From: Basidiobolus meristosporus CBS 931.73
Taxonomy: Eukaryota; Basidiobolomycota; Basidiobolomycetes; Basidiobolales; Basidiobolaceae
DNA: 64,000 bases
Assembly: GCA_002104905.1 (NCBI GenBank)
Contig: MCFE01000272.1
Location: forward strand, 42,020-106,019
Direction: 5' to 3'
Every line of letters begins with the position of its first letter. The stretch's first letter is position 1. Positions 4,826 to 64,000 of the stretch are shown one piece after another. Under the pieces are notes generated by a model. It worked only from the letters and a program-made list of their open reading frames with translations. It made no database searches and had not been told where the DNA came from. The translations under genes and the position numbers were made by a program.

Positions 4826-5171
4826 TGGTTGTGAGAGTATTGTGGAAACTGGATGTGATTGAGAGAAATAGTAGATTATGTGATTTTCACCTAAGGATAT
4901 ATGGAATGTAAAAGTAGTATTTATACCTTATATAATCATGGCATAACAAACACAGAATAGGCTGAGGAAGGTCCCAAGAACATGATGCAAAGTTGGAGAC
5001 TGATTGCCTGACTTACCTGATTTTCATTTTCTGGGTATCTGATATTTTTGTGAAAAAATTCAAAGTAGCTCCTGACAAAGAACTTGGTTATTATTCTCCA
5101 ATATATGTAGGTAAGGATATAATTCACCACATTTGGTGAATACTTAGGTGGATTAACAAGCTTTTACAACA
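4826..5171 (-). repeat. Copia LTR (346 bp)
   Basis: It is similar over its full length to the LTRs at 16047-16393 and 21052-21398; the right edge is TTTTACAACA. In the minus sense it is the 5' LTR of the gag fragment at 4383-4825. Confidence 0.8.
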
Positions 5172-16046: not shown

Positions 16047-16393
16047 TGTTGTAAAAGTCTTGAAGATATTGGCAGTGATTGAGAGAACAAGTAGATTATA
16101 TAGTTTTCACTTAATGATTTAATGAATGTAAAAGTAGTATTTATACTTCTACATAGTTTTGGAAAATCAAGCACAAAGAATAGGTGTAGGAAGGTCCCAA
16201 GAATGTGTGCAAAGTTTGGGGCTGTATGGACAACTTTGGGAATTTTCATGTTTTGGGTACCTGATATTTTGGTGAAAGTATTTTAACTAAATCCCAACAA
16301 GGATTTTGGTGAGTATTCTCTAGGATTTGAAGGTAATGTTCTAAGTGACCAATTCAGGTGATTATCTAGGTGAAATTATGAATTTTTACAACA
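16047..16393 (-). repeat. 3' LTR of the minus-strand copia
   Basis: It runs from TGTTGTAAAAGTC to TTTTTACAACA (347 bp). The adjoining internal sequence is the polypurine tract (AAGTGGGAG on the minus strand). Confidence 0.85.
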
Positions 16394-21051: not shown

Positions 21052-21398
21052 TGTTGTAAGAGTCTTGGAGATATTGGAAGTGATTGGGAGAACAAGTAGA
21101 TTATATAGTTTTCACTTAATGATTTATTGAATGTAAAAGTAGTATTTACACTTTTACATAGTCTTGTCTAACAAACACATAGAGTAGGTTTAGAAAGATT
21201 CCAAGAGCATGTGTGCAAAGTTTGGGGCTTTTTGGGCAATTCTGAGAATTCTCATGTATAGGGTACCTGATATTTTGGTGAAAATATTCCAAGTAAATCC
21301 CAACAAGGAATTGGGTAGTATTCTCTAGGATTTGTAGGTAATGATCCAAGTGACTAAGTTAGGTGAACATTTAGGTGGAATTACAAATTTTTACAACA
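21052..21398 (-). repeat. 5' LTR of the minus-strand copia
   Basis: It runs from TGTTGTAAGAGTC to TTTTTACAACA (347 bp). The primer-binding site lies directly inside it (minus strand, GGTGATGAGCCCC at 21039-21051). Confidence 0.85.
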
Positions 21399-28729: not shown

Positions 28730-28737
28730 TATATAAG
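28730..28737 (+). promoter_or_regulatory. TATA box of the first DUF1775 gene
   Basis: TATATAAG, 68 bp before the chosen ATG at 28805, in otherwise unstructured upstream DNA. Confidence 0.6.
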
Positions 28738-28804
28738 TTGCATAGAACATTCTATGCTTCCTCATTACCTTTTTTGTAAACTCGTCACACGCTTTGTTGA
28801 CCAA

Positions 28805-29425
28805 ATGCTTTCACTGAATACCTGCTCTGGCGCCTTGGTTGTGCTGCTTACGCTCGTGAATCCAGCTGTATCTCATATCACCGCTAATCCAAGCGCAGCT
28901 TACTTGAATACTTACTTCCAGACGGCGTTTCGCGTTCCCCATGGCTGCTCAGGCTCGCCAACCGTGAAGTTGACTATTGATATCCCTGATGGCGTTATCA
29001 ATGTTGCGCCTCACCAGATCTACAATTGGACCATTTCCATTGCCTACCGTCCACTCTTTCCTCCCGTCATCAGTGAGGGGGCAGTTGTTAACCAAACAGT
29101 CAGCTCGGTTACATATTCCGGTTATTTAGATCCAACCTGCTACGAGGACTTCGGAATCTCCATGAAACTGCCTGCCCAGGTTCCAAACAGCATTCTGTAT
29201 TTCCCCGCCCATCAGATTTGTGTCAATGGATCCACTGATTGGACCAATACTCCACAGAGTGGCCAAAATGCGATGTCATTGCCCGCCCCAGCACCTAGTG
29301 TCCAAACGGTTCCTCAGCCGTCCTCCAACAGTGCCAGCGGGGTTGCCGCTGCGGCGTCCTTCACCAATGCATCGAGCCACTCGCTGGCATTGGCATTCAT
29401 TTTGATCTTTGCATTTGCCCACTAG
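28805..29425 (+). CDS. Secreted DUF1775 (YcnI-like) protein, GPI-type C-terminus
   Basis: 206 residues, no intron. I start at ATG 28805 rather than 17 codons upstream because it gives a clean signal peptide (hydrophobic ALVVLLTLV, cleavage before HITANPSAAY). The DUF1775 domain follows: FRVPHGC, TVKLTIDIPDGV, YEDFGISMKLP, LYFPAHQICVNGSTDW. Then comes a Ser/Pro-rich spacer and a hydrophobic tail (LALAFILIFAFAH) without a basic anchor, typical of a GPI signal, so the protein should sit at the cell surface. In bacterial YcnI the mature N-terminal His binds copper; here the predicted mature N-terminus is also His. N-x-S/T sites are present. It has a tandem paralogue at 30084. Confidence 0.9.
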   Translation: MLSLNTCSGALVVLLTLVNPAVSHITANPSAAYLNTYFQTAFRVPHGCSGSPTVKLTIDIPDGVINVAPHQIYNWTISIAYRPLFPPVISEGAVVNQTVSSVTYSGYLDPTCYEDFGISMKLPAQVPNSILYFPAHQICVNGSTDWTNTPQSGQNAMSLPAPAPSVQTVPQPSSNSASGVAAAASFTNASSHSLALAFILIFAFAH

Positions 29426-30011: not shown

Positions 30012-30083
30012 TGCCAAAGCTCACTGGTAGCTTTCGACAAGCTTGTCTGATTCATACTATCTCCCACTGAGCAAATCTTGAAT

Positions 30084-30698
30084 ATGGTCTCCTTCAGAGC
30101 TCTTTTCACCTCCACAACCGCCTTCTTGGCCACTCTTGCTCCTGTTATGTCTCATGTCACTGCTAATCCCAACGCCGCCTACCTGGATTCTTACTTCCAA
30201 ACCTCCTTCCGTGTCGGTCACGGGTGCTCAAACTCCCCAACTGTCAAGCTAACCATTGATATTCCCGATGGTGTCACCAGTGTTGCCCCTCACCAGCTTT
30301 ATAACTGGACCATTGCCATCAATTATCGCCCTTTGGTTCCCCCTGTCACCAGCCACGGAGAAACCATCAATCAAACAGTCAGCTCTGTTACCTACACTGG
30401 TTACCTGGAGCCCACCTATTATGAAGACTTCGGTGTCTCTATGAAGCTCCCCGCTCAAGTTACCAACAACGTGCTGTACTTCCCAGTCCATCAGATCTGT
30501 GTCAACGGATCTACCGAATGGACCGACATTCCCCAACCCGGAAAGACTGGCCAATTGGCTTCACCTGCCGCTAGTGTGCAAACTGTCCCCAAGCCTGCCA
30601 CCGATGGTAAGGGCACCACTAGCGCTGCTACCTCCATGACTTCCGCCAGATCCCTCTTAATCCTAGCTCTTACAGCTGTGTCTGCCATGGCACTCTAA
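30084..30698 (+). CDS. Second secreted DUF1775 (YcnI-like) protein, GPI-type C-terminus
   Basis: 204 residues, no intron. A signal peptide ends at VMS followed by HVTANPNAAY, so the mature N-terminus would be His as in YcnI copper proteins. The domain matches the upstream paralogue block by block (FRVGHGC, TVKLTIDIPDGV, YEDFGVSMKLP, LYFPVHQICVNGSTEW), and the tail is Ser/Thr-rich then hydrophobic (LLILALTAVSAMAL), a GPI signal. The two genes are a recent tandem duplicate. Start: the first ATG after TATA; the in-frame TTG at 30078 is not needed. Stop TAA. Confidence 0.9.
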   Translation: MVSFRALFTSTTAFLATLAPVMSHVTANPNAAYLDSYFQTSFRVGHGCSNSPTVKLTIDIPDGVTSVAPHQLYNWTIAINYRPLVPPVTSHGETINQTVSSVTYTGYLEPTYYEDFGVSMKLPAQVTNNVLYFPVHQICVNGSTEWTDIPQPGKTGQLASPAASVQTVPKPATDGKGTTSAATSMTSARSLLILALTAVSAMAL

Positions 30699-35316: not shown

Positions 35317-38300
35317 ATGGATGATATAGACAAAGACGCGTTCTTTAAGCATTTAGACGATGTCCTCTTAAGTTTAAAAAGCGAGTCGAACGACACTTCT
35401 GGCCGAGCAGACGATATGAAAACGGCCGGCGATGCTTTCGTGCAAAGTGTGGTCCAAGTCAGCTCCAAAGAAAAATCCACCCTTTCCCAGGGGTGCGGTA
35501 GCCATCAAGACCAGGGGCCTTCCGAACTGCGTCCACAACACAGGTCGGAAAACATGGGATATCAAGTGCGATCGGTCATTGGAAATTCGGAAGAGGATAT
35601 ATTGAAAGGAATGTACTCAGGGCTTTTGGGGTTACAAGACAACACTTCACCAGACCATCGATGCCAATCGCTTATTCACCGGGGTTCACGTTCTCTGTGT
35701 AGCACAGAGGAATTCGATCCAAATCAGTACAGAAACGAGCACTCTCCTAAGGGCATGTATGTGGATGATCTGCCGAGAAGACAGCTAAACATTGGCGGCG
35801 TTGGACGAACCGGGTATTTACTGGAAGATGAGCCAAGCTTATCACCAATTCCCAAAGACGCAAAACAACCGAGTCAGACACCGCCACCGTATTCGACCCA
35901 ATACCTTGATGTAGACTCATATATAGGTTCATTAAATGGCAGTTCATCATTGCACGATGAGACATTCCCACCGCCTGAAGTTTCATCTATACTAAGTCAA
36001 GGTATCTTGGATGAACCGTCGGTTCGGCATCGAAACCCCGCATGTATCGCACATCCCGGTACAGACCAAGAGATGGCCAATTCGAAGCATGAGAATTACG
36101 GGGCTTTTGAAACTGAGGACGATGCCAGTGATAAGAACACATCAGGCTCCATACCAAGTAGTCCAGAGCTTTATGCTTCGCCCAGGCGACCACCCGTGGA
36201 TCCGGCTCGTAGTAATTTCGGCCCCACGCTTTGTAAGGACCACAAGAATTCGAGGCTTTTGGATTATCAATCGTCCGATTGTCTGGCTAAGGATCTCAAA
36301 TCGATCCTATGCTTCACACGCCAAAAATCCTTTTCGACTTCGGACAACTCGCGTGCCGATGCACTGGAGGAGGATAAAGCTAAGGCGGACTTTACAGGCG
36401 ACAATGAAGAGCAAACGGATTCAAGCGAGACAGATGCCGACTCGGACTTGACATTTGGCGAGCAGTATTGTAAGGCTGGTTCCGCCTCTCGCCAGCTTCC
36501 ATTTGGTCGCAGGATTATCCATAGCAAACCAGCCAGGGAGAGCAAGCTGGAATCAACTCGAAAAAGAGCGAAGTTGAGCCGGGATGGTATGGGCATCTCT
36601 GGTAGGGTGTTGCGTTCGGAACTGCCTTCCCGATTGCCGAGCACCCACTCAACAGGTTCCGATTGCAATGAGCCAGATCATATTACGGGGCCAAAATCTC
36701 CTTCAAGAGATACTTCCGCGGAACCAGCGCATCATTTAGTCGATGGCCAACATCCCTGGAGAATTTTTACTGGAACGCGAATCTTTATCATTCCATGCAA
36801 GATTGACAAGACTCGTCTGAGCCTATTCAAGCAGCGACTGGAAGAAAGAGGAGCTGTCGTGGTCGGTGCTTATTCAACGCATATCACGCATTTGGTGAGT
36901 GAGTTGACTGGCATGCTCATTTTGCGTGAATTGGGTGTAAGTGAAGTCCCAGTAAGTAGAAATAAAATTCGTCCCGTAACCAAGCCTGAATGAGTTCATT
37001 AACCAGTGTCGCTGTATTGGCGACTTCCTGTGTTCATAGGAGCATGTAGTTGTTGTGCGATCTAACTGGATCTCGGAATCTGTCATGGTACGGCCTATTT
37101 CCCTTTTCATTGCATTTATCCACCATATGCAGTATCGGCCCCGTGTTGACTAAGGCGATTCTTTGTTTTCTCCGACCGAAGTTTGGAAGATTGGCTGACG
37201 TCGACAAGCACAAGGTATCCCTGGAGCCGCAGAGTTGCGTTGAAACTGCATCCCAGGAAGTCTCAACCGCCCTGGCCAAGGACCCCTCACCTGTTCAGAC
37301 TCCCAAGTTATCATCGAAAATACTCTGGTGGAAGCGGCGGTGGAGATACAAAAAGCGGAAGTATGAACCGGAATCCGACACAGATAAGGAGGCAGGGAAC
37401 TCCGGGAACGATAGGTCAGACAAACTCAACTATATTTATTGCTTGGACACCCATTCTTACACCCATTAGCGATCACGATGGCCCCACGAGGTTTTCAGAA
37501 ACCGAAAGTACCACGACAGCCACCCAAGGGCAGATTGACCAATGGTACCACCAGGTGATCTACAATCCCAGAATATCGAATTATTTATCGCCTCAACTGA
37601 CCCTGATATCCTGCGTCCGTCTAATGCTAATACAGTCAGGCGATTCTTGTCCACGCGCAAGTATCGAGCCCAAGATGAGTTCATCAACTAATCCCTTCAC
37701 GGTAATACGCCTGGATTCATCCTGCTACACAGCTCCCTAACATTTTCTGCCCTGCAACTGGTAACAGGAATTGAATTACGCAGAAGGTGCTACCTATTCA
37801 CCCAAGAGCAATGGCCCAAGAGAAAAGGTGGGTCCTTGGGTCAGTATGTCCTTGCTACACACGAATTAACTTACGCATTGCAGTACAATTGGGAGCAGAA
37901 ATTTCTTTGCATGCATCCAAATACACTGGACAAAGGAAAGAAAGGATGCCCCAATCAGATTATCATCAACAAACTAATGATCCTAAAAGAAGCATACGAG
38001 AGTGTGAACGATAAGTTTCGAGCACTGGGCTATACCAAGGCCATTGCCGCGCTCAAGAAGTATCCTAAGCCGATTACTTCCAAAGAGGAGGCTCTTCAGA
38101 TCCCGCGTGTGGGGAAGCGATTGGCTGACAAGGTGATCACCCCACTAAGCCATGGCTATTTCTCCACTTTAAATAACCAGCATTTTATGGCAAAGATCGG
38201 AGAAATCATCGCTAGTGGCCACCTTCAAAGACTAGACTATATCGGCGAGGATGTTCAAGTGATGGAGATGTTCACCAAAGTTTACGGTAAACCCGGCACT

Positions 38301-39520
38301 TTCAAATGCTGCATCGTGCCCCGGCTCAAAGTGCTGATCTTCAACAACCCCGTAGGCGCCGGCCCGTACCAGGCCCAAGTGTGGTATAACCAGGGATTCC
38401 GAACCTTGGAGGATTTGAGAACGAAGGCGGTGCTAAACCGCGACCAGAAAATCGGGCTGAAATACTACGAAGTAACTTTTCGTGGGAGAATCGATCCTTT
38501 TACATCACTAACCATCAATTTTCCGAAGGACCTGAATCAGCGGATGCCCCGCGAAGAAGTCGCCAACTACGCCAAAGTAGTCATGGAGGTGGCATCTGAG
38601 GTGGATCCCAAGCTTCAGTGTTATGTGGCAGGATCGTTTCGGCGTCTTAAGGTTGTATGCTGCACTCGCATGATCAGTCTATGCCACTCTTCACACGAGA
38701 TTTTAACCTTGTTTGCATCACACTGCATTAGCCAACTTGTGGTGATATCGATATTCTGATCACACGGTACATGCTGGATTTGATGGCAACTACAAGGATC
38801 GCCATGCTTCAAATCACTAACCCACCTGATGCTTTCCAGTGATCCCAGCGATGGAAAATCCCACCAAGGTAAGCACCGCCTGGGTAGCCTCCAGACCAAC
38901 AGCAGGTTCAGCTGACACTTTCTATCAGGGCTCCTTGCCAAGATCGTAGCCATCCTTTCAGAACGGAAATTCTTGACTGATGACCTGGCACTTCCCGCAG
39001 ACGAGACTGGAGCCAAATACATGGGCATCTGCCAATTGAACGGAGGACTGCACAGACATATTGGTAAAACATCGTCGTGACCTGTCGTACAAGGGATAAT
39101 CCCATTCAAATGGCCTTTTCAGACCTCCTACTAGTTCCATACAAGCAGCTGGGGGCTGCCCTACTCTACTTCACCGGGAGTGACATATTCAACCGAAGCA
39201 TGCGGTTGCTGGCTATCAAAAAGGTAATACGTCCCTGATCGATACAAACCCACTCCGACCGGTTAACTGATACGCTCCTCTGCGCAGGGCATGATGCTGA
39301 ACATGCACGGGCTCTACGACCAGGTACTGCGTGGTCGCAAAAGAAAAAACCTCTCGGAGGGCAGACTGATAGCCTCTTCCACCGAAAGAGAGATCTTCGA
39401 GAGGTTGGGCATGCCTTATCGGTAAGTGGGACATCAGGGGTTCGATAGAGAGTGGAAGCGGACTGAACCCGGATTGCGGAACTACCATTTAGTGAGCCGC
39501 ACGAACGTAACTGCGAGTAG
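35317..39520 (+). CDS. Family X DNA polymerase (Pol lambda/Pol4-like) with BRCT domain, 16 exons
   Basis: A gap-filling repair polymerase (base excision repair, end joining), predicted 1055 aa. Exons: 35317-36951, 37040-37087, 37182-37414, 37470-37554, 37636-37701, 37768-37827, 37884-38132, 38196-38286, 38356-38471, 38529-38651, 38732-38766, 38840-38868, 38929-39063, 39123-39223, 39288-39421, 39493-39520; every GT-AG junction preserves frame. Residues 1-480 are a Ser-rich disordered extension with a basic KRAKLSRD patch. A BRCT domain follows ([12 protein letters not shown] ... RSNWISESV, ending [11 protein letters not shown]), then an SP-rich linker. The catalytic part has the HhH lyase region ([11 protein letters not shown]), [19 protein letters not shown], metal-binding GDIDIL and [17 protein letters not shown], and ends YREPHER. 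Exon 3 could start at 37155 instead. Confidence 0.95.
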
Positions 39521-51744: not shown

Positions 51745-51956
51745 CGGTTAGCAGGGATGACAATCACCAGCAGGTGAAGTTTTTATTTGAATAGTTCAGA
51801 ATATAGAAGCCAAGCGCTACATGGGGACCTTTTTTACAATTGAATAAAGAGAAGGATTCTTTGCAAAAGCTTGAAAGAAAGGCCACTAAGATCAAATGAA
51901 GCAAAAAGTGAGTTAAGTGCCACTGGGGGGATAACTACAGGAAGTAATGGCTTATC
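51745..51956 (-). repeat. Fossil 3' end of a telomere LINE
   Basis: The plus strand shows the LINE 3' module in reverse: hairpin TCACCAGCAGGTGA (51764-51777), TTTTTATTTGA (AATAAA region changed), then GAAGCCAAGCGCTAC, matching LINE B (GAAGCCAGCGCTAC). It is preceded by GCGGTTAGCAGGGA, which looks like decayed telomeric repeat. The rest is too diverged to read. Confidence 0.6.
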
Positions 51957-52284
51957 TGTTGTAAAGATTCGGAATTCCACCTAAATATTTACCTAACCTA
52001 GTCACTTAGATCATTACCTTCAAATCCTAGAGAATACTGACCAAATTCCTTGTTGGGATTTACCTAAAATATTTACCCAGAACATGAAAATTAGATAAGC
52101 TCGAACAGCCCAAACTGTGCACACATGTTCTTGGGACCTTCCTTAACCTATTCTACATGTTTGCTATGCTAAGACCATGTAAAAGTATAAATACTACTTT
52201 TATATTCAATAAATCATTAAGTGAAAACTATATAATCTACTTGTTCTCCTAGTCACTTCCAATATCTCCAAGACTCTTACAACA
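51957..52284 (+). repeat. Copia LTR (328 bp), second subtelomeric copy
   Basis: It runs from TGTTGTAAAG to CTCTTACAACA, collinear with the LTR at 54126-54474 with small deletions. The primer-binding region GGTGATGAGCCCC follows. Confidence 0.85.
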
Positions 52285-52650
52285 GGTGATGAGCCCCAAT
52301 CTGTCACTCTCTGCAATATCTATCACTGCTATTACTGGAATTTTTCCCTCTGCTGAAAAGTTGGATGGATCTAACTCTCAGGTGTGAAAGGTGAAGATGA
52401 AGATGCTGCTACAAGAAAGAGGCCTTTGAGATATTGTCATGGAAGAAGAATGCCCTCCTCAAAACCTGGGAGAGGAATCCTTAAATACCAGAAGAAAGAA
52501 TAAAGTGCCTTTAATTGCATTTGCCTTAATGTCAAAGGCAAATTGCTAATTCAATGCTCAAGAGCAAAAATGGTAAAGAATGACTGGAAGGCATAGGAAG
52601 ACACCTACCAGTCATGTTTAGCTGCCAAGCAAATGTATCTTATACAGAAA
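52285..52650 (+). pseudogene. Copia gag start, truncated at a telomere junction
   Basis: It is collinear with 54475-54840 but with stops and indels, and ends abruptly inside gag (AAATGTATCTTATACAGAAAC) where TTAGGG repeats begin. The distal remainder of this element is missing. Confidence 0.85.
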
Positions 52651-52651
52651 C

Positions 52652-52669
52652 TTAGGGTTAGGGTTAGGG
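52652..52669 (+). repeat. Interstitial telomeric tract 1
   Basis: Three TTAGGG units in the same orientation as the chromosome end, between truncated copia and LINE A. Confidence 0.95.
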
Positions 52670-54125
52670 GGAGGCAGTCACCAACAGGTGAAATCTTGAT
52701 TTCAGTTGAAACAAAGAAGCCAGCACTACTGTTGTAGCTTTGATACAAGAGTGTGTAGCTGAGGGGAATTTGTAGGTAAGTTAATAAGAAGTGATGATAG
52801 TTCTTCAGTGCTCAAGACACTGTTCAGTGGGAAGGGGGGTAGCAAGAGAGGTAAGAATGACTTGTGAACAACATTAATGAGGGGAATGTGATAAGGATTG
52901 ATATTCATCATAAAGGGAGTGTGCTGCTGCAGATATTGCTGCCAAAGGTCTGTCAAGTACTTCAGGTAGGCCAGCTTGGGTTTTTCTGACTGCAGAATAT
53001 AGTGAGCAAACTTCTTGACTTCAGGATCTCCAAGTATAGTTCTCCAGCAGGAGCCAGGTGTTGTGTGGTGTGTTCTCTTCCAGGCCTTAATCAGTGGGTT
53101 GTTGCAGTTGTGAAGTCTGAGGTATGATCTGGTTCTAAGGTAGAGAAGTCTGATCTTATAGGGCATAAACCCAAAAGCACCAAGAATAGCATGTCTGTAG
53201 GGGCATTCAGGCAAATGAGGCACCAAGGAGGTAATGCACCATACTGCAAGCTTGTCAAGCTTAGTGCAGTCTCTAGAAGTAAGAGAGAGAAGTGGCAAGC
53301 CAAATTCCAGGACAGGGAAGACAAACTGCTTGAGTAGAAGGAGGCAGCTGGGAGCTGAAGCTGTAGGAGGAGTAACAGCCAGTAGCTTGTGGAGTGCCTG
53401 TCTTGCCAGGATAATTCTCTTCTTCAGGTGTGCTCCAGAGTCTAGTCCAGTAGGAAGGAAAGGAAAGCCAAGATATGTAGCAGAAACCTGAGCAGGTAGA
53501 GTGGAGTTCTCCAAGTTGATGGGAGAGCCCAAAGGTACTGTCTTTGCAATGGAAAGCTGAAGATTATTCTTCTGCAGATACTGGTGGATGGTCTGGGAGT
53601 CTTGTTGCACATTGGAGGAGGATATTCTGATGTCATCAGCAAAGAGAGTAACCAGGCAGTCAGCTGAGAGTCTTGGGAAATCATTCAGGAAGATGGCAAA
53701 CAGTATAGGACCAAGCACAGAGCCTTGAACCACTCCATTAGGAACTGAGAACACAGCTGATTGCTCACTTGGGTGCAGAATTCTTGCTTGTGGATCCAGA
53801 AACAGAGACCTGACAAGGAGGGTGAGAGAGGTACTGGAGAAGCATTGCAACTTGGACCAAAGCAGATTTCTGTCAACTGAATCAAAGGCCTTAGTAATAT
53901 CAAACAGAACAGAGGGATACTTGCACTGGAGAGAGTGATCTTGGCTAAGTATGACTGCATATTCTAAGGAGAGGCCAGGAACAAAGCCAAACTGTGCAGG
54001 GTGAAACTTGAGGGAGTCAGAGTAGAGCTCCTGAGTAAGCAGAAGCTCAAACACCTTTATGCAGGTGGGCAGCAGAGATATTGGCCTGTAGGAGCTAGGA
54101 TCCAGGTGCTTTCCTTTACCCTTGT
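52670..54125 (-). mobile_element. LINE A: 5'-truncated non-LTR retrotransposon joined to telomeric DNA
   Basis: Minus-strand element whose 3' end abuts TTAGGG tract 1. It carries the 3' module, then one open frame from the RT domain onwards (stop TAG at 52726). RT blocks: SYRPISLLPT, QFGFVPG, LFDITKAFDSVDR, NGVVQGSVLGP, LFADDIRIS and the LSIAKT thumb region, then about 250 residues of C-terminal domain. The endonuclease and ORF1 are absent because a copia LTR begins at 54126 within the element. No frameshift is seen over 460 codons, so it is young. The AATAAA is altered (ATCAAG) in this copy. Confidence 0.9.
52678..52691 (-). promoter_or_regulatory. 3' hairpin of LINE A
   Basis: In element sense TCACC-TGTT-GGTGA, a 5-bp stem, about 8 nt from the telomeric junction. 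Confidence 0.75.
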
Positions 54126-54474
54126 TGTTGTAAAAATTTGTATTTCCACCTAAATATTCACCTAACTTAGTCACTTAGATCATTACCCTCAAATCCTAGA
54201 GAATACTGACCAAATTCCTTGTCGGGATTTACTTAGAATATTTTCACCAAAATACCAGGTACCCAGAACATGAAAATTCTCAAAGTTGTCCAAACAGCCC
54301 CAAACTTTGCACACATGTTCTTGGGACCTTCCTTAACCTATTCTACGTGTTTGTAATGCCAAGACCAGGTAAAAGTATAAATACTACTTTTACATTCAAT
54401 AAATCATTAAGTGAAAACCACATAATCTACTTGTTCTCCCAATCACTTCCAATATCTCCAAGACTCTTACAACA
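54126..54474 (+). repeat. 5' LTR of the subtelomeric copia (349 bp)
   Basis: TGTTGTAAAAATT...CTCTTACAACA. It holds the promoter (AAAAGTATAAATAC near 54372) and AATAAATC (near 54398). It is inserted directly into LINE A's ORF. Confidence 0.9.
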
Positions 54475-54487
54475 GGTTATGAGCCCC
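54475..54487 (+). promoter_or_regulatory. Primer-binding site matching initiator tRNA-Met anticodon arm, overlapping the gag ATG
   Basis: GGTTATGAGCCCC lies immediately after the LTR. It is complementary to GGGGCTCATAACC, the anticodon stem-loop of eukaryotic initiator tRNA-Met (CAT anticodon), as in half-tRNA priming of Drosophila copia and yeast Ty5. The ATG at 54479-54481 inside it is in frame with gag. Confidence 0.75.
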
Positions 54488-57400
54488 AAGCTGTCACTCT
54501 CTGCAATGTCTACTACTGCTATTACTGGAATTTTTCCCTCTGCTGAAAAGTTGGATGGATCTAACTACCAAGTGTGGAAGGTGAAGATGAAGATGCTGCT
54601 ACAAGAAAGAGGCCTTTGGGATATTGTCATGGGAGAAGAATGCCCTCCTACAAACGTGGGAGAGGAAGCCTTGAAGTACCAGAAGAAAGAACAAAGTGCC
54701 TTTAACTGCATTTGCCTTAATGTCAAGGACAAATTGCTAATTCAATGCTCAAGAGCAAAAATGGCAAAGAATGCCTGGAAAGCATTAGAAGACACCTACC
54801 AGTCATGTTCAGCTGCCAAGAAAATGTATCTGAGAAGAAAATTCTTTACTACAAAGATGCTGCCAGGAGAAGAAATGAAAAATCTAATTAACAGAATTAC
54901 CCTGCTGGTAGATGAGATGGAATCTGTGGGCGTACCAACTACTGATGAGGATGTGATAGTTACCATCCTGAATAGCCTGACAGACAGGTTTCAGGGCCTT
55001 GTATCAGCCCTAGAGTCCAGAACTGAAGATTTGACCTTAAATTACGTATACGGAAGGCTCCTGGATGAAAAATTAAGAAAATCAAGCGCCAATAAGAAGG
55101 ATGATGAAAATGCTTTAATAAGCAATGATAACCAACAAAGGAGGTACCCAAGACCCTACAAAGGCAACAGCAACCTATTTTGCAACTACTGCAAAAGGAA
55201 AGGACACACATCAGACCGGTGTTTCAAAAAGAGAGATTATCAGCAAAAGAAGCCTGAATATGGAAATGCTGCAACAACTGAAGATAGACTATTCATATCT
55301 GCACCAAATATGACCACAAACAAGGATTCTCAGACGTGGTATATTGACTCTGGAGCTTCTCAGCACTTTACACACCAAAAAGAACTTTTTACCCAATATC
55401 AAGAAATTCCAATTAAGAAGGTTTTCATGGGTGACAATAGAACACTTGATGCAGTGGGAGAAGGAACTATCCAAGTAAACCTAAGAAGCAGTGAAGGCAG
55501 CCATACACTGACCTTTAAAGAAGTACTCTATGTACCAGAAATAGCCAAGAACCTACTCTCTGTAAGCAAGGCCACAGCAGAAGGACTCAGTTTCAGTTTT
55601 GACAATTCTGGATGCAGGATCACTGATCAAAATGGTGCCCATATTGCTTCGGGCATCAGAGATCAGAATCTATACAAGTTGACTTATATTCCATCATATC
55701 TGGAAGCCAATATAAGTAACTTAAATGAAGAAACGCCAATGCTTTGGCACAGGAGATTTGGACACATCAATTTTGATTATTTGCGTAAAATGATCAAAGA
55801 TCAGCTAATTTCTGGAGTGAAAATTGATCCCCCAGCTAGTTTGGAGCACTGTGAAGCCTGCATATATGGGAAACAAGCCAGACAACCGTTCAAGAGCTCT
55901 GGGTTAATCAAAACTAAGAAAAAATTAGATCTAATTCACTCAGATCTGTGTGGACCTATGCAAAATTTATCCTTACGGCGGGATGAAGTATTTAATCACT
56001 TTTATTGATGATTATACAAGATACACATGGGTCTACTTCATGGAGAGAAAGGAAGAAGCTCTGTCTAAGCTCAGGGAGTTTAAAGCCATGGTGGAGAGAG
56101 AAACTGGTGAAAAAATCAAGAAAATACGCTCTGACAATGGTGGAGAATATACCTCAAAACTCTTCATCCACTTCTGCAAAACTCATGGGATAAAGCAAGA
56201 GACTACTGTACCATACTCCCCACAGCAAAATGGAGTAGCAGAACGAGCTAACAGATCAATAATTGATATGGCAAGATCTATGATCCATGATCAAAAATTA
56301 TCCTATGATTTTTGGGCGGAATCAGTTGCCACTGCTGTATATCTTAAAAATAGGAGTTACAACAGAATACTTTGTGATTCTACTCCATTTGAAGCATGGT
56401 ATGGATACAGACCAAGTGCAGAACATCTAAAATATTTGGGTGTACAGCATATGCCAAAAAACTGGCCGGAAATCAGTCAAAATTTGAGCCAAAAAGTGTA
56501 AAATGCATATTTTTGGGCTACTGCAATGAGAGTAAGACATACAGACTCTACAATACCAAAGCAAAGAAGCTGATCAAGTCCAGGGATGTGTTGTTTGATG
56601 AAAATTCAAAATTTTCACAAAAAATGACATCAGATGATGACAAAAATTTGATCTCAAGTCCACCAATTGTCAGGATTGAATCAGAGCAAAACAATGAAAT
56701 TTTTTCACTCCAGAGGACTCTACAACCGTGGTTCAGCCAGAATCAGTGCCCAGGAATATCCCAGAAGTGATCATTCCAGTATTAAAGCCCGGAGATCCAA
56801 TCGGACAAGAAATAGCCCAAATTACTATATCAATGAGGGTACAAACTTAGCCTATGCCTATTCAGTCCATATTGATGAACCCCAGACTGTAAAAGAGGCC
56901 CTAAATAGCCCTCAGACAAAGTTTTGGAGATCTGCAATGACTGAGGAATATCAGGCCCTGATGGAAAATCAAACTTGGGACTTAGTCAAATTACCAATCA
57001 ACCAAAAATCAATTGGATGCAGATGGGTCTTCAAGACAAAATACAAGGCTGATGGTACAATTGAAAGATACAAAGCAAGACTTGTAGCCAAAGGATACTC
57101 TCAAACAAAAGGACTTGACTATACTGAGACCTTTGCACCGGTAGCCAAGTTTAATTCCATCAGATTAATATTGGCTATTGCAGCCAAATATAAGTTTTTT
57201 ATTCATCAAATGGATGTAAAAACTGCATTTTTGAATGGAGAACTTGATGAGGACGTGTATATGGACCAGCCTGATGGGTTTGTTGACCAAGATAACCCCC
57301 ATTTGGTCTGCAAGCTTAAAAAGTCACTATATGGTCTCAAACAATCACCGAGAGCCTGGAATTGCAAGATAGATTCTTATTTGGAATCCTTGAGTTTCAA

Positions 57401-58253
57401 AAGAAGTAATGCTGACTATAGTATATACTATAAGCCAGATAGAGCAAATCCAGTTCTATTAGCTCTATATGTGGATGATCTTATTATAGCCACCAATGAA
57501 CCTAGAAACACTGGAAGAGACTAAATCCAGCCTATCTAAGGAGTTCAAGATGTCTGATTTAGGAGAACTTAGTTACTACTTAGGGATTAAGTTCTCCATA
57601 GACAGAAGTACCCAGACTATTACCCTAAGCCAATCCAAGTATATTCAAGATATACTAAAGAAGTACAAAATGGAAGACTGTAAACCGGCAGCTACCCCAA
57701 TGGAGACAAACCTTAACTTGGTCAAAACTCAACCAAATCAAGAGAGCTTGGTGCCATCAGAAAGCCCTGACTTTCCTTATCAATCTATGGTTGGCAGTCT
57801 GATGTATATCATGCTTGGAACACGTCCAGATATCTCATATTCAGTGGGAGTTGTCAGCCAACATAATCAGAACTATGGATCTGATCACATTGCAGCAGTT
57901 AAGCGGATTTTTAGATACCTAAAAGGAACTGCTGATATTTGCTCAAGATACACTTATAAGGACTCAGAACAAGATCTTGTGGGATACTCTGATGCACATT
58001 GGGGACAAAATTTAGAAGAGAGAAGATCCACCACAGGATACACCTTTCTTTACTGTAAAGGAGCAATTTCATGGAATTCAAGAAAGCAACCAACTGTAGC
58101 ACTTTCTACTACCAAGGCAGAGTATATGGCAGCCTGTGAAGCTACAAAAGAAGCAATGTGGTTAAGAAAGCTCTTTACAGATTTAGGCCTATGTCAAAAA
58201 CGCTATTACTTTATTCAAGATAATCAAGCATGTATACAATTAGGTAGAAATCC
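54479..58253 (+). pseudogene. Ty1/copia gag-pol, 3' truncated, several frameshifts
   Basis: Order: gag (DGSNYQVWKVKM), zinc knuckle CNYCKRKGHTSDRC, protease YIDSGASQHF, pre-integrase LWHRRFGHIN, integrase (IHSDLCGP, IRSDNGGEY), reverse transcriptase (DVKTAFLNGEL, LYVDDLIIA), RNase H (ISWNSRKQPTVALS, QDNQACIQL). The frame changes near 55975, 56455, 56740 and 57515, often at short A or T runs (for example AAAAAAC at 56456), so some shifts may be sequence errors. It stops inside RNase H at about 58253 where TTAGGG begins; about 80 codons, the polypurine tract and the 3' LTR are lost. Confidence 0.9.
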
Positions 58254-58259
58254 TTAGGG
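58254..58259 (+). repeat. Interstitial telomeric unit 2
   Basis: A single TTAGGG followed by extra Gs, joining truncated copia to LINE B. Confidence 0.75.
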
Positions 58260-59084
58260 GGGAGACAGTCACCAACAGGTGAAATCTTTATTTCAGTTGA
58301 AACAAAGAAGCCAGCGCTACTGTTGTAGCTTTGATACAAGAGTGTGTAGCTGAGGGGAATTTGTAGGTAAGTTAATAAGAAGTGATGATAGTTCTTCAGT
58401 GCTCAAGACACTGTTCAGTGGGAAGGGGGGTAGTAAGAGAGGTAAGAATGACTTGTGAACAACATTAATGAGGGGAATGTGATAAGGATTGATATTCATC
58501 ATAAAGGGAGTGTGCTGCTGCAGATATTGCTGCCAAAGGTCTGTCAAGTACTTCAGGTAGGCCAGCTTGGGTTTTTCTGACTGCAGAATATAGTGAGCAA
58601 ACTTCTTGACTTCAGGATCTCCAAGTATAGTTCTCCAGCAGGAGCCAGGTGTTGTGTGGTGTGTTCTCTTCCAGGCCTTAATCAGTGGGTTGTTGCAGTT
58701 GTGAAGTCTGAGGTATAATCTGGTTCTAAGGTAGAGAAGTCTGATCTTATAGGGCATAAACCCAAAAGCACCAAGAATAGCATGTCTGTAGGGGCATTCA
58801 GGCAAATGAGGCACCAAGGAGGTAATGCACCATACTGCAAACTTGTCAAGCTTAGTGCAGTCTCTAGAAGTAAGAGAGAGAAGTGGTAAGCCAAATTCCA
58901 GGACAGGGAAGACAAACTGCTTGAGTAGAAGGAGGCAGCTGGGAGCTGAAGTTGTAGGAGGAGTAACAGCCAGTAGCTTGTGGAGTGCCTGTCTTGCCAG
59001 GATAATTCTCTTCTTCAGGTGTGCTCCAGAGTCTAGTCCAGTAGGAAGGAAAGGAAAGCCAAGATATGTAGCAGAAACCTGAGC
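58260..59084 (-). mobile_element. LINE B: second, shorter copy of LINE A
   Basis: Nearly identical to 52670-53490 of LINE A, including hairpin TCACCTGTTGGTGA (58269-58282) and an intact AATAAAG. The C-terminal domain frame (stop TAG at 58317) is open to the break at 59084, where TTAGG sequence starts. Differences from LINE A are almost all transitions. It keeps no RT catalytic block, so it is a 5'-truncated copy. Confidence 0.9.
58269..58282 (-). promoter_or_regulatory. 3' hairpin of LINE B
   Basis: Element sense TCACC-TGTT-GGTGA, identical to LINE A. Confidence 0.75.
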
Positions 59085-59095
59085 TTAGGTTAGGG
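59085..59095 (+). repeat. Interstitial telomeric tract 3
   Basis: TTAGGTTAGGG; one unit lacks a G. Confidence 0.85.
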
Positions 59096-59104
59096 GGAGG
59101 AAAG

Positions 59105-59118
59105 TCATCAAGTGGTGA
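59105..59118 (-). promoter_or_regulatory. 3' hairpin of the SINE
   Basis: Element sense TCACC-ACTT-GATGA; one stem position is mismatched relative to the LINE hairpins. Confidence 0.6.
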
Positions 59119-59540
59119 AATCTTTATTTACTTATGACAAGTATCTAAAGAAGCCAAGTTAATCTGAAGTTATTCCTAGAAAGCTAGGTCTGAGAGATAT
59201 CTTCCTGGTAAGCCAGGTCTGAGAGTTGAGAAGCTGAGTGGTACTATATTTCCTAGTTAGCTAGGTCTGAGAGTGGTTTCCTGGAAAGCCAGGCCTGAGA
59301 AGTGAGAATCTGAATATATCTGAGCTAAGTTATACTGGTTTGCGGTAGCTGAATTGTGGCCGGAATGGCCAGTAGACTGGGGGAACTGAGATGTATTTCT
59401 GGGCGATCACTGGCCAAATTTACTAGGCAAATCTGGCCAAGTAGCATTTCAAGGATTTCAGCCAATCAGAGCCTTTACTTTGCCCGATGGTTGATCAAGC
59501 CATCTCCCAATGAGCACACATCAATTTATTAATCAAATTT

Positions 59541-59612
59541 TGCTGGATCCAGGATTTGAACCCACAACCATGGGTATGGAAGGGTTAGGGATAACCACAA
59601 GGCTAAGTGTTC
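59541..59612 (-). promoter_or_regulatory. tRNA-like pol III promoter (A and B boxes) of the SINE
   Basis: On the minus strand the A-box-like TAGCCTTGTGGTTATCC (about 59589-59605) is followed 43 nt later by GGTTCAAATCC (59552-59562), a near-consensus B box. The spacing is that of a tRNA gene. The anticodon arm does not fold cleanly, so this is a SINE head rather than a functional tRNA. Confidence 0.7.
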
Positions 59613-59613
59613 T

Positions 59614-59639
59614 TGGTTAGGGTTAGGGTTAGGTTAGGG
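59614..59639 (+). repeat. Interstitial telomeric tract 4
   Basis: GGTTAGGGTTAGGGTTAGG then TTAGGGG, between the SINE 5' end and the LINE D 3' end. Confidence 0.95.
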
Positions 59640-59648
59640 GAGGGAAAG

Positions 59649-59663
59649 TCACCAAGTTGGTGA
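59649..59663 (-). promoter_or_regulatory. 3' hairpin of LINE D
   Basis: Element sense TCACCAACTTGGTGA, the longest stem of the set (six to seven pairs). Confidence 0.75.
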
Positions 59664-59721
59664 AACCTTTATTTGAGTTAAGATCTAATCTAGGTACAAA
59701 TAAAGAAGCCAATTAAGAGGT

Positions 59722-61877
59722 CTAGAACCTCTCTAATAAATAATCTAATTTATGTTTTGTTTCATCTCTAATGTTTGTTTCAATAAAGTAAAGCTCATCA
59801 GGGGTAAATATAAAATTCAGGGGTTTTGGGGGAAGTACAAATTGTAGATGTTTCTGATCAATATAATCCAAGACTGGAACCCAGCCTGGGATTAGGTGTA
59901 GTAGGAAAGGTGTGTGGACTTGTAAGTAGCTCTGCCACATAGATCTTAGATGGTCCTGAGCCAGTAGTCTTGGTTTCTCAGCTTTTTGAAGTTTTGAAGC
60001 AAGCTCTGTTACTACAGCAGAGCCAACCAGGGTGTGCCAGCAAGAAGATTTCAGGGAGGAGTTAGATTGAAGCCATTGTTTGATGGAGGGGTTATGTGAT
60101 TTCTGAAGTTTGACTAGGAAGGAAGCACGGAGATAGACCATTCGGATTTGGTATGGGTAGAAGCCAAAGGCTCCATTAGTTGCATGGATATAGGGAGATA
60201 CTGGAAGACAAGGTACCAAGGATCTGATACACTGATGGAGAAATTTATCCAGGCGGTGAAGTTCTCTGGAGGTTAGGGGTATAATGTGGAGACCAAACTC
60301 AAGTACCGGCAGTACATACTGCTTCAGAAGTATAGGGATCTTTTGAATTGGAGTGTCTGGAGTGACTACTACCAGAAGCTTTTTGAGAGCCTGTTGAGCA
60401 AGACGGATCCTATTATTCAGGTGGAGCTTTGAGTCAATCCCATGTTGACAAAATGGCAGACCTAGATATATTGCAGTTTGTTGTGGCAGAATGCTAGTGT
60501 TCTGTATAGTTGTAGTGCATCCAATTGGGACTGTCTTGGAAATTGAGAGTGAGAGGTTGTTGGCAGCCAAGTACTTCTCAATGATGGCAGTGTCTGCTAT
60601 GGGATTAGGAGTAGCAATCTTGATATCATCCGCATAGAGAGTTAGTAGTGGATAGGGAGAGTCTGGTGAGGGGCCTTTTGGAAATAAAGGAAAGTCATGT
60701 AGGAATATCACAAATAGTAAGGGACCTAGTACAGATCCTTGGACTACTCCATTTGGAACCTCATAAGTCTCTGATGTACAACTTGGATGCAAAATTTTGG
60801 CTGAGTTCTCACAAAATAGAGAACGTACAAGAAGGGTCATTGGTAGTGTGGTAACTGCTAATAGCTTTCTCCAAAGCAGAGCTCTGTCCACAGAGTCAAA
60901 GGCTTTAGTAATGTCAAACAGAATGGTTGGCAATGAGAATTGAAGTGAATGATCATGGCTTAGCACTACAGCCATATCCAAGGAGAGTTTGGGCAAGAAG
61001 CCAAACTGAGAAGGATGGAATGGATATAGTTGAGATTGCAAGGATCTTGCAATTATAAGCTCAAAGATTTTCCGGCAGGTTGGCAGGAGTGAAACTGGCC
61101 GGTAAGAACCTGGGAGTGAGTGTTTCCCCTTCCCTTTGTATAAGGGTATTACATTTGCCTGTGACCAGGCCTTTGGGGTAGTCAATTGTTGGGCACAGAT
61201 AGAGTAGAATGGGAGAAGTAAGTGACTCATTTTGGAGTAGCACACCCGGAGTAGATCGTAGGTAATCAAGTCATGTCCAGGTGCAGTATTTGCAGGAAGC
61301 TTCTTTAAAATTTTCTCCAGAAGCTTTGCTGAAACCAAAATTGGAGATGTTGGACTGCTAGATATGTTACCAGTATGGTAGAAAGGAGGAGTGGGATGCA
61401 CGGTTGAATCAAAGAATATAGGGGCCAGTTTGTCTGGTGATGGTATACTTCTTGCTTGGGGTCTCATGGCTTTATATACTCTTGATATGGACCTTGTGGT
61501 GGCATTCATATTTACTAAGGGCAAGGTATCCATGATATGAGCCCATAATCTAGTATGCTCAGTGATCTGTAGTGACTTGGAGTAGGAGATTGTGCTTTCC
61601 AGGAGGTTCTGTGTTTTTGGGTTAGGGAAACATAGGTAGCTGGAATTTAAGGCAGAAATGATGGATTTCCATTTAAGTTGGTTTGCAGATGGCTTTTGGT
61701 AGGACTTGGTGGGCAGGGCCAGACAGCCAGTGATTATGATGAAATGCTGGTAAAATAGCCATAATGCATTTATATCATCACAAATCCATGCAGGTAAGCT
61801 GGGAAATGCATATTCTGTAAGCAAGGATAGGTAGTTGGCAAAGTCCTGTGTCTGTGATACTGAAGCTTTGGCTGGCA
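59722..61877 (-). CDS. LINE D ORF2 fragment: reverse transcriptase
   Basis: RT blocks in order: SYRPVSLLPTCRKIFEL, QFGFLPKLS, LFDITKAFDSVDR, NGVVQGSVLGPLLFVIFLHD, LLTLYADDIKIA (catalytic Asp pair), LSLSISKTVPIG. The C-terminal 300 residues have no Zn knuckle or RNase H motif that I can see. The frame can be read further upstream into element E's 3' UTR (to 61989), but that part is a chance fusion across the junction. No own start codon remains, so it is probably not translated as such. Confidence 0.85.
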
Positions 61878-61887
61878 GGGTTAGGGG
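61878..61887 (+). repeat. Interstitial telomeric unit 5
   Basis: GGGTTAGGGG joins the 5' break of LINE D to the 3' end of element E. Confidence 0.8.
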
Positions 61888-61895
61888 AGGGAAAG

Positions 61896-61911
61896 TCACC
61901 AAGGTAGGTGA
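61896..61911 (-). promoter_or_regulatory. 3' hairpin of element E
   Basis: Element sense TCACC-TACCTT-GGTGA. Confidence 0.75.
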
Positions 61912-62009
61912 AATCTTTATTTGATTGCAGACAAGTCTAACTACAAATAAAGAAGCCAGCTGGGAATAGAAGATTCCCAAAGTAAACACTAAGTTGAATA
62001 TGAATAAAT

Positions 62010-62738
62010 CTAAGCTAAAGTTAAGGCAGTATCCCAGAGTACACTGGAGTTCAGGTTCATGGGGGAGTGAAGTAGATAAGCTTGAGAGATATAATAATCT
62101 TTGAGGAAGTGGGTAACAGCAGGTGAAGGGGAGTTTTTGATAAGTGAAGTGAATCTTGAGAGCAGAGATTCCTCTAATGAGAAGGTCCTGTAAACTGGAG
62201 AATCAGGAAACTCTTTAAAGGCATGGTCAGTAGGTTCCCAGTAAAACTGGTCAGAGACATTTTGAGAGAACTCTTTAGCAATACTTTTGTCAAGTACTAC
62301 CTCCAGAGTGTGATTGTTGATAAATCTCATGTTAACAATCTTGGATAAATTGTAACCTTGTTGCTTGAGATACATCCTATGCTCAGATATAGGAATGAAC
62401 TCCACATTGGCAAAGTAGCAGACAGCCCAGTCAGTAGCAGGAGGCATATCAGAAGTAGAAGGAAACTTTCTTTTAGTCTTGGGAGAAGCAGCAGGATGTC
62501 TTGAGGAAGCAGGAACAGGCTTTTTGACAGCTTCAGAGTAGGAAGAGTGAGCAGGAGCAGATGATTCTTGGGGAGTCTTGTTGACAGGAACAGCTGGCAG
62601 AGAGACAATAGATTCTTGCAGTTCAGAGAAGGCAGAAAACAGCTTTTGAACTTGTTTCTTGAGTAAAGCATTTTCAGCTTCAACAAGTGCAAGCCTTTCC
62701 TCAAGGAAGGAAATCTGAAGGGAATGGAGTGAAGGCAT
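62010..62738 (-). CDS. Element E ORF1 protein (242 aa), coiled-coil and likely RNA-binding
   Basis: Start at ATG 62738; the upstream in-frame extension has only a TTG. Residues about 8-45 form a leucine-rich heptad coiled coil (FLEERLALVEAENALLKKQV), as in LINE ORF1 trimerisation segments. A Ser/Pro/Lys-rich basic linker follows (about 60-95, with PKTKRKFPS), then a globular region from DWAVCYFANVEFIPISEHRM to the end. No zinc knuckle or clear RRM is seen. By position and architecture it should package element RNA and perhaps guide it to telomeres. Stop TAG. Confidence 0.75.
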   Translation of the reverse strand: MPSLHSLQISFLEERLALVEAENALLKKQVQKLFSAFSELQESIVSLPAVPVNKTPQESSAPAHSSYSEAVKKPVPASSRHPAASPKTKRKFPSTSDMPPATDWAVCYFANVEFIPISEHRMYLKQQGYNLSKIVNMRFINNHTLEVVLDKSIAKEFSQNVSDQFYWEPTDHAFKEFPDSPVYRTFSLEESLLSRFTSLIKNSPSPAVTHFLKDYYISQAYLLHSPMNLNSSVLWDTALTLA

Positions 62739-62779
62739 AAGAAATAAGAAGAAGAGGGTAAGATGGGGTGGGTGGGTGG

Positions 62780-63812
62780 GAAAATTAGCAGGGAGAAGAG
62801 AAGGAAGGAGCAAAAATTCCAGAAGTCAGAATTTATAGATGGATGGACAAGGGTAGATGGATGGATTATTCCTGGGTTAGGAAAATTAGCAGGGAGAAGA
62901 GAAGGAAGGAGCAAAAATTCCAGAAGTCAGAATTTATAGATGGATGGACAAGGGTAGATGGATGGATTATTCCTGGGTTAGGAAAATTAGCAGGGAGAAG
63001 AGAAGGAAGGAGCAAAAATTCCAGAAGTCAGAATTTATAGATGGATGGACAAGGGTAGATGGATGGATTATTCCTGGGTTAGGAAAATTAGCAGGGAGAA
63101 GAGAAGGAAGGAGCAAAAATTCCAGAAGTCAGAATTTATAGATGGATGGACAAGGGTAGATGGATGGATTATTCCTGGGTTAGGAAAATTAGCAGGGAGA
63201 AGAGAAGGAAGGAGCAAAAATTCCAGAAGTCAGAATTTATAGATGGATGGACAAGGGTAGATGGATGGATTATTCCTGGGTTAGGAAAATTAGCAGGGAG
63301 AAGAGAAGGAAGGAGCAAAAATTCCAGAAGTCAGAATTTATAGATGGATGGACAAGGGTAGATGGATGGATTATTCCTGGGTTAGGAAAATTAGCAGGGA
63401 GAAGAGAAGGAAGGAGCAAAAATTCCAGAAGTCAGAATTTATAGATGGATGGACAAGGGTAGATGGATGGATTATTCCTGGGTTAGGAAAATTAGCAGGG
63501 AGAAGAGAAGGAAGGAGCAAAAATTCCAGAAGTCAGAATTTATAGATGGATGGACAAGGGTAGATGGATGGATTATTCCTGGGTTAGGAAAATTAGCAGG
63601 GAGAAGAGAAGGAAGGAGCAAAAATTCCAGAAGTCAGAATTTATAGATGGATGGACAAGGGTAGATGGATGGATTATTCCTGGGTTAGGAAAATTAGCAG
63701 GGAGAAGAGAAGGAAGGAGCAAAAATTCCAGAAGTCAGAATTTATAGATGGATGGACAAGGGTAGATGGATGGATTATTCCTGGGTTAGGAAAATTAGCA
63801 GGAAGAAGAGAA
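62780..63812. repeat. Tandem array, ten 101-bp monomers plus 22 nt
   Basis: Monomers begin at 62780, 62881, 62982, 63083, 63184, 63285, 63386, 63487, 63588 and 63689; a partial one starts at 63790. Copies look identical except the last partial one (GGAAGAAGAG instead of GGGAGAAGAG) and the 62780 edge. Each holds GGGTTAGG at the unit junction and, on the minus strand, CTATAAATTC. In the plus strand each gives a chance 65-codon frame, which I do not treat as a gene. Confidence 0.95.
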
Positions 63813-64000
63813 GGGTTAGGGTTAGGGTTAGGGTTAGGGTTAGGTTAGGGTTAGGGTTAGGGTTAGGGTTAGGGTTAGGGTTAGGGTTAGGTTAGGGTTA
63901 GGGTTAGGGTTAGGGTTAGGGTTAGGGTTAGGGTTAGGGTTAGGGTTAGGGTTAGGGTTAGGGTTAGGGTTAGGGTTAGGGTTAGGGTTAGGGTTAGGGT
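63813..64000 (+). repeat. Telomere, (TTAGGG)n, right chromosome end
   Basis: About 188 nt of TTAGGG with two shortened units (GGTTAGGTTAGGG near 63840 and 63890). The G-rich strand runs 5'-3' off the window, so this is the right terminus. Confidence 0.98.

Follow-up and report, generated by a model that had tools for sequence, protein, structure and literature searches.

The DNA analysed here (the window) comprises 64,000 bases of Basidiobolus meristosporus CBS 931.73 (contig MCFE01000272.1, positions 42,020 to 106,019) and carries at its outer end a chain of retroelements, which is the subject of this report. It makes up the last 64,000 bases of a contig of 106,019 bases (C505), so that the end of the window is the end of the contig. 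Six elements on the minus strand, namely element A, LINE B, LINE C, a SINE, LINE D and element E (LINE and SINE, long and short interspersed nuclear elements), occupy approximately positions 51754-63815 and are followed by a terminal TTAGGG array. The plus strand of the window has 33 occurrences of the motif TTAGGGTTAGGG with at most one mismatch and the minus strand none, where 0.32 would be expected by chance. In five of the six elements a telomeric seam adjoins the 3' end, and these five seams are 6 to 23 nt each, not long tracts.

From the inner to the outer side, the oldest link is element A (51754-51957), the decayed 3' end of a B-family LINE. Its local alignment with the 3' end of LINE B scores 62 (best of 200 shuffles, 36), and its 3' side is GGTTAGCAGGG, without TTAGGG. 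At the end of A starts Copia 1 (51958-52651, plus strand), which consists of the 5' long terminal repeat (LTR) and the start of the body and is then broken off; LTR and body are 89% identical to Copia 2 (BLAST). A seam of (TTAGGG)3 (52652-52669) separates the broken Copia 1 from LINE B (52670-54126, minus strand), which retains the 3' tail and the C-terminal part of open reading frame (ORF) 2 with a reverse transcriptase (RT) domain (Pfam RVT_1). Comparison of copies shows LINE B to be continuous with five others as far as position 54127, where Copia 2 (54127-58253, plus strand) is inserted. Copia 2 has a 5' LTR, gag, gag-pre-integrase and RT (Pfam Retrotran_gag_2, gag_pre-integrs and RVT_2) and no 3' LTR; it ends at a break near 58253, which a seam of a single TTAGGG (58254-58259) follows directly. 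LINE C (58260-59084, minus strand) is another B-family copy, truncated at its 5' end and with 99% identity to LINE B. Then follow the seam TTAGGTTAGGG (59085-59095), the full-length SINE (59096-59616, minus strand) with a putative tRNA-like head and the common 3' tail described below, the seam TTAGGGTTAGGGTTAGGTTAGGG (59617-59639), the 5'-truncated LINE D (59640-61876, minus strand), whose ORF2 with an RT domain spans 59722-61876 (Pfam), and the seam AGGGTTAGGG (61877-61886). Element E (61887-62778, minus strand) has the common tail and an ORF1 (62010-62738, 242 aa), without ORF2; its 5' region (62779-63814, minus strand) is a 101-bp tandem unit repeated 10.3 times, with GGGTTAGG in every unit. 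The terminal TTAGGG array (63812-64000, plus strand, 189 bp) ends contig C505. The Copia LTR also occurs away from the end, at 4828-5170, 16047-16392 and 21046-21397, in copies with 78-90% identity to the LTR of Copia 2.

The first-pass annotation had described a chain on the minus strand in which every 3' end lies on TTAGGG and every 5' end is truncated and followed by the next telomeric tract. The chain itself is borne out, with LINE C to be added to it, but the description of the ends holds only in part. The 3' rule fails for element A; LINE C and LINE D are indeed truncated, but the SINE is complete and so is ORF1 in E, where the 101-bp array is also present; and LINE B is bounded outward by the insertion of Copia 2, not by a telomeric tract. 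The replication of LTR elements does not of itself cause 5' truncation. Therefore, the two broken Copia elements may be taken as a record of chromosome-end loss followed by a short seam and a new element, and the layout of the window suggests that events occurred in this order.

The genome searched comprises 89.0 Mb in 1,311 contigs. Pattern search and alignment identified a 3' tail common to LINE B, LINE D, element E and the SINE, which reads GTCACCAA-N-GGTGAAATCTTTATTT, with small variants, on the strand opposite to the element. The exact tail occurs at 1,509 places (1,388 forward and 121 reverse), and the backward control pattern at none. TTAGGG stands 4-12 bases before the tail at 1,205 of the 1,509 places (1,119 forward and 86 reverse); at the places listed, the gap between the two is made up of a G-run and the element end. 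A strong 3' hairpin was rejected as a further common feature, two of four tails forming a more stable fold than their shuffles (z -2.7 and -2.5) and two not (z -0.9 and 0.9); the tail of the window SINE deviates in the hairpin stem.

The B family has ORF1 and then an ORF2 of 922 codons with an endonuclease resembling apurinic/apyrimidinic endonuclease (APE) and an RT, and open frames are present. The D family has ORF1 and an ORF2 that is open for 949 codons in relatives of the window copy. Junctions of ORF1 and ORF2 number 136 for B and 30 for D genome-wide. Over the aligned part, window B is 66% and window D 45% identical to the relative P0005. For LINE D, the best match among named proteins is the gene model P0006 of B. 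meristosporus CBS 931.73, the first part of which is near-identical by eye. In all ten E copies examined, the tail and the ORF1 match are 246 bp apart; searched with 24 bases of the 101-bp unit, each of the ten gives between 1 and 13 matches. The 40 E copies listed, which are those scored out of 197 candidates and include the window copy, are 97-100% identical. The E ORF1 is related to its counterparts in B (34% over 150 aa) and in D (24%), and none of the three ORF1s gave a Pfam family above the cut-off. In the protein database, E ORF1 yielded 274 word-sharing candidates, none at E 0.001, and a search of the plasmid collection with E gave no match. With a fixed structure, ORF1 only and a conserved ORF, E is a HeT-A-like, gag-only element.

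The SINE is approximately 520 bp long. By eye, its head shows a sequence resembling a B box (GGTTCAAATCC) and, weakly, an A box; ARAGORN calls no tRNA in it. Genome-wide there are 213 full-length SINE heads (203 forward and 10 reverse), of which 170 (164 and 6) run directly into TTAGGG. The window copy also has an internal 65-bp repeat (59173-59237 and 59250-59313, 83% identical). Rfam returned for the 51-64 kb part of the window a single match, a plastid intron (E 0.45), under the gathering score of the family.

The LINEs are classed as APE-type non-LTR retrotransposons, as judged from their sequences, with a predicted N-terminal APE-like endonuclease and an RT in ORF2. The two RVT_1 matches in the window have E values of 9e-21 and 6e-26, and the nearest solved structures of the RT are those of LINE-1 ORF2p, R2 being much weaker. 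The relatives P0001-P0003 and P0005 have RVT_1 together with Exo_endo_phos or Exo_endo_phos_2, and Pfam, in which no dedicated model of the restriction-like endonuclease was used, gave no nuclease of another kind in them. The nuclease matches are weak (PF14529, 27.5 bits in P0001 with a cut-off of 27.4; PF03372, 23.0 bits in P0005 with a cut-off of 24.5), and B-family copies in the genome score 24.9-26.7 bits, under the cut-off; because of this, the class assignment rests on the motifs as well. The APE-like motifs, for which we take certain residues to be catalytic, are kept in most B and D copies among 24 loci looked at. Where Glu is usual, all 21 B and D copies in which the site is retained have Asp, as do P0005 and P0002. 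A separate Exo_endo_phos_2 match (L101; C439:109639-109977) belongs to a 287-codon ORF that does not resemble the telomeric LINEs.

In both B and D, ORF2 continues in frame with ORF1 after TGA CTA, and its first ATG is at codon 142 in B and codon 59 in D. Direct reading showed UGA CUA in seven of seven B copies that reach the junction (L115 falls short) and likewise in those D copies that were read. The genome-wide search patterns left the stop's first base free and fixed the other letters, copies with other changes being uncounted; the free base is T at all 100 listed of the 136 B junctions and at all 30 D junctions. In Ustilago, UGA followed by CUA is enough for readthrough (PMC4207609). ORF2 may thus be produced by stop-codon readthrough, or else by reinitiation. 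The ORF1 of E ends in TAG, without the readthrough context.

The coding regions are under purifying selection. The ratio of nonsynonymous to synonymous differences (pN/pS), computed from pairs that are not independent, is 0.16 for D ORF2 (the 6 of 10 loci that are open), 0.22 for B ORF2 (first 400 codons; 5 of 14 loci, with L107 left out as out of register) and 0.32 for E ORF1 (9 of 10 loci; L124 lacks the start motif). The genome also encodes, on C880 and in two pieces, the telomerase RNA-binding domain PF12009, which had 0 matches in 14 control genomes. Since a telomerase domain is encoded, the elements probably exist beside telomerase and not as its substitute.

The first-pass annotation had further proposed a LINE system specific to telomeres, and the positions of the copies support this well. 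Among the 100 tails listed, the 73 on contigs of known length were used, the other 27 being left out. All 33 tails on ten contigs longer than 100 kb (1.98 Mb) lie at most 22.2 kb from the end predicted by their strand. The other 40, on twelve contigs of about 20 kb, provide a weak test only and are 38 forward and 2 reverse (both on C27). For the B junctions, 45 of the 100 listed were placed, on 40 hand-picked, mostly large contigs (6.24 Mb), with odd-looking ones included, and 44 of the 45 lie at most 17 kb from the predicted end. Similarly, 14 matches to the B-family endonuclease on contigs of known length are on the minus strand, 0.9-10.2 kb from the right contig end (from 22 listed, one of which, on C439, is of another kind). 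Eighteen of the 29 element-bearing contig ends looked at terminate in a TTAGGG array.

Genome-wide, 98.9% of the (TTAGGG)4 matches are on the plus strand, and the telomere seems nearly always to be at the right of the contig. This excess may be counted in favour of an assembly artefact of mis-joined telomeric reads. Contig C424 (312,558 bases), which starts with CCCTAA and ends with TTAGGG, has mirrored chains with a full-length SINE capping each, and its mirror symmetry suggests that on other contigs the excess reflects the way in which they were oriented. With this symmetry, with many different junctions among the 75 compared below, and with a CBS 931.73 genome derived from PacBio sequencing (PMC7466969), an artefact is highly improbable.

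The 75 junctions consist of 30 loci and 40 places, all from the listed tails, and the five window seams. The 3' junction is a G-run in all 75, and no 3' poly(A) occurs at these junctions. The G-run is 3 to 10 long, with a mode that differs by family; slippage of a C-run paired with the GGG of a primer would have this effect. Of the 75 junctions, 62 have TTAGGG at the G-run, as do 13 of 911 control G-runs (first 51 kb of the window), and the counts for GGGTTAGGG are 31 and 0, respectively. In 52 junctions, 3 to 7 periodic bases precede the G-run, corresponding to a seam of 6-10 nt, and in only six are there at least nine. For comparison, 17 terminal arrays, the window's included, have a median of 207 bp (range 49-243), these sizes, measured outward from where a four-unit run first appears up to the end of the contig, being lower bounds. 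Upstream of the seams are the LINE B family or the SINE (38), E (6) and D (2), in each case with their 5' end abutting the seam, as well as broken Copia (8; six in one orientation and two in the other) and other DNA (20). The one remaining junction has a B label in the opposite orientation, which by eye is the Copia-LTR flank of a reference locus. By eye also, the seam tends to start with GGG after an upstream A and otherwise with TTA. This tendency resembles telomere healing in Magnaporthe, which proceeded on seeds of 1-4 nt in 19 of 24 cases (PMC7367193).

Taken together, these results make it probable that a telomere-dedicated consortium of non-LTR retroelements adds itself to chromosome ends, beside telomerase. 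The two autonomous LINE families, B and D, would supply ORF1 and the ORF2 enzyme with its APE-like endonuclease and RT, and E and the SINE, by virtue of the common LINE 3' tail, would presumably be mobilised in trans by that enzyme. The element RNA would end in the hairpin-like tail and a C-run, with which the 3' G-strand of a chromosome end bearing about one TTAGGG would pair and prime the cDNA. Because the cDNA continues the TTAGGG strand, it is the 3' end of the G-strand that would have to prime, and it follows from such priming that the 3' end of the element faces the centromere and the 5' end, often truncated, faces outward. Telomerase would then re-cap the new end, and later erosion or breakage would open it to the next addition.

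As to the state of the target, uniform insertion along arrays of the present length, without later filtering, does not fit the seams, and three readings may be considered. The preferred one is priming on very short or just-healed ends; in the others, insertion by nicking is followed by selective survival, or the RNA itself brings the seam. In a more far-reaching form of the preferred reading, telomerase would add one or two units to whatever end is broken or eroded, and the element RNA would prime there, before or instead of the formation of a full array. The minimal GGG end would be a primer for LINE, SINE or ORF1-only RNA alike, and the chains would be a record of end losses. Both parts of this form are put forward tentatively.

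In the second reading, the endonuclease nicks the G-strand within the array or at its base, as in TRAS/SART or MoTeR, so that the element comes to lie between repeats, and only insertions with short inner tracts survive, long interstitial tracts being prone to breakage. Nicking would also give equal element orientation, and the conserved APE-like motifs together with the purifying selection on ORF2 agree with it, as does the observation in Magnaporthe that inter-element tracts are stable up to (TTAGGG)2 and break when longer (PMC7367193), a size like that of most seams here. Unfiltered, uniform insertion into arrays of about 207 bp does not yield seams of 6-10 nt, however, and broken Copia elements that end at a seam require a prior loss of the chromosome end; moreover, full-length SINEs pass directly into TTAGGG. 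Nicking is accordingly regarded, for both insertion and filter, as possible but doubtful. In the third reading, the seam is part of the RNA, the transcript reading into the inner TTAGGG of its source copy and being laid on any DNA end. The clustering of seam sizes at one to one and a half units over unrelated targets, and the approximately six junctions without any unit, fit this, but some seams have three or more units or imperfect ones, and the apparent dependence of the seam start on the last upstream bases is more like telomerase action or target annealing. A seam carried by the RNA is thus somewhat unlikely.

Several observations weigh against end-priming or against the consortium as a whole. 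Conservation of the endonuclease motifs is easier to reconcile with nicking of telomeric DNA than with end-priming alone, and, since long interstitial tracts break in Magnaporthe (PMC7367193), the short seams could be a survival filter. At 255 places (238 forward and 17 reverse; slightly different tail pattern), the tail follows at least two units. Thirteen of the 75 junctions are without TTAGGG directly at the G-run, several having a damaged unit and about six none. Of the 29 contig ends, 11 stop short of an array (C3, C14, C27, C29, C32, C43, C69, C80, C490, C679 and C1158), and C27 (19.9 kb; L038, L041, L084 and L085) has two tails and a telomere array at neither end. One of the two telomerase pieces on C880 reads through a TAG, perhaps an intron. 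No age gradient was found along the chain, 16 B-type copies being 92-99% identical to the window copy at any distance from the end, so that a stepwise age is not evident from them. The one B junction out of place belongs to an inverted chain of SINE and LINE B on C726 (L181-L182, C726:53800-60400), 13 kb from a normal telomere, which is most simply a relic of fusion or rearrangement; where copies in random orientation away from telomeres were looked for, in part of the copies, it was the only misoriented one among the 45 B junctions.

The junctions are also not all independent, because recombination between ends can copy chains. It may even be asked whether exchange between ends, by recombination or break-induced replication, is the main way in which the chains spread, retrotransposition now being rare. 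The rearranged chain of C726 would be in line with this, as would 528-bp spacings that recur in several contigs, although these recur partly because full-length SINEs have a fixed length. Most of the sampled upstream breakpoints differ from each other by eye, however, many open ORFs are under purifying selection, and the size of the G-run varies at the 3' junction; a predominance of recombination is therefore unlikely.

Known telomeric elements share some of these features but not others. MoTeR2 of Magnaporthe is also non-autonomous. MoTeR, FoTeR (Fusarium) and Cnl1 (Cryptococcus) are likewise fungal telomere LINEs joined by TTAGGG tracts, with truncated copies (PMC7367193; PMC12857005). These elements group with CRE/SLACS and have a restriction-like endonuclease, in contrast to the N-terminal APE-like one of the present LINEs; FoTeR has variable number tandem repeats upstream, and its 3' ends carry 3-7 repeats, against mostly one here (PMC12857005). 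A SINE, an ORF1-only partner or UGA-CUA was not encountered in the part of the MoTeR, FoTeR and Cnl1 literature covered. Zepp (Chlorella) and GilM/GilT (Giardia) are likewise telomere-associated retrotransposons (PMC10088271).

HeT-A, TART and TAHRE of Drosophila also lie head-to-tail with the 3' end toward the centromere and include gag-only beside pol-bearing members (PMC5537684). The uniform HeT-A/TART orientation was found here in 33/33 tails, 44/45 B junctions and both ends of C424. The Drosophila type, however, replaces telomerase and has no telomeric simple repeats, whereas here there are a PF12009 match, terminal TTAGGG arrays and TTAGGG units between elements, without 3' poly(A) at the 75 junctions. 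TRAS and SART of the silkworm are of the APE type and, as here, are telomeric LINEs that coexist with telomeric repeats; their insertion into longer arrays with a poly(A) 3' end differs from the mostly one-unit seams and from the G-run, the latter found here in 75/75. SART1 needs three repeats and poly(A) (PMC7265360), as opposed to mostly one unit and a C-run tail, and SART and TRAS insert in opposing orientations (PMC10088271), while the four families here agree. Among the precedents named in the first-pass annotation, MoTeR differs in endonuclease class.

Retroelement telomeres are usually discussed either as a substitute for telomerase (flies) or as elements inserted into the repeats that it makes (silkworm, Magnaporthe). 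This early-diverging fungus seems to combine both modes on many ends, and its hundreds of readable junctions make it possible to test whether the reverse transcriptase of a LINE works at failing ends alongside telomerase. A contribution to end maintenance is plausible, and the chains of related elements suggest help in patching damaged ends beside ordinary telomerase. The gag-only element repeats the Drosophila arrangement in a distant lineage, and stop-codon readthrough, if true, would be an unusual means for a LINE to set the ratio of ORF1 to ORF2. If telomerase and the elements do act in relay on short ends, an early-diverging fungus would host an APE-type telomeric LINE consortium with a HeT-A-like member, a telomeric SINE and UGA-CUA readthrough. 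Searches of the open-licence literature, each limited to 20 papers, yielded no description of a combination of APE-type LINEs, an ORF1-only member, a telomeric SINE and UGA-CUA, and the titles and abstract starts listed gave no account of such a system in Basidiobolus, which does not imply absence from print.

Two other loci in the window may be mentioned. Neighbouring ORFs at 28730-29425 and 30051-30698 are alike by eye, and the first matches DUF1775. At 35317-38759, two ORFs contain a weak, below-cut-off BRCT match followed by the HHH, fingers and palm domains of an X-family DNA polymerase (lambda-like).

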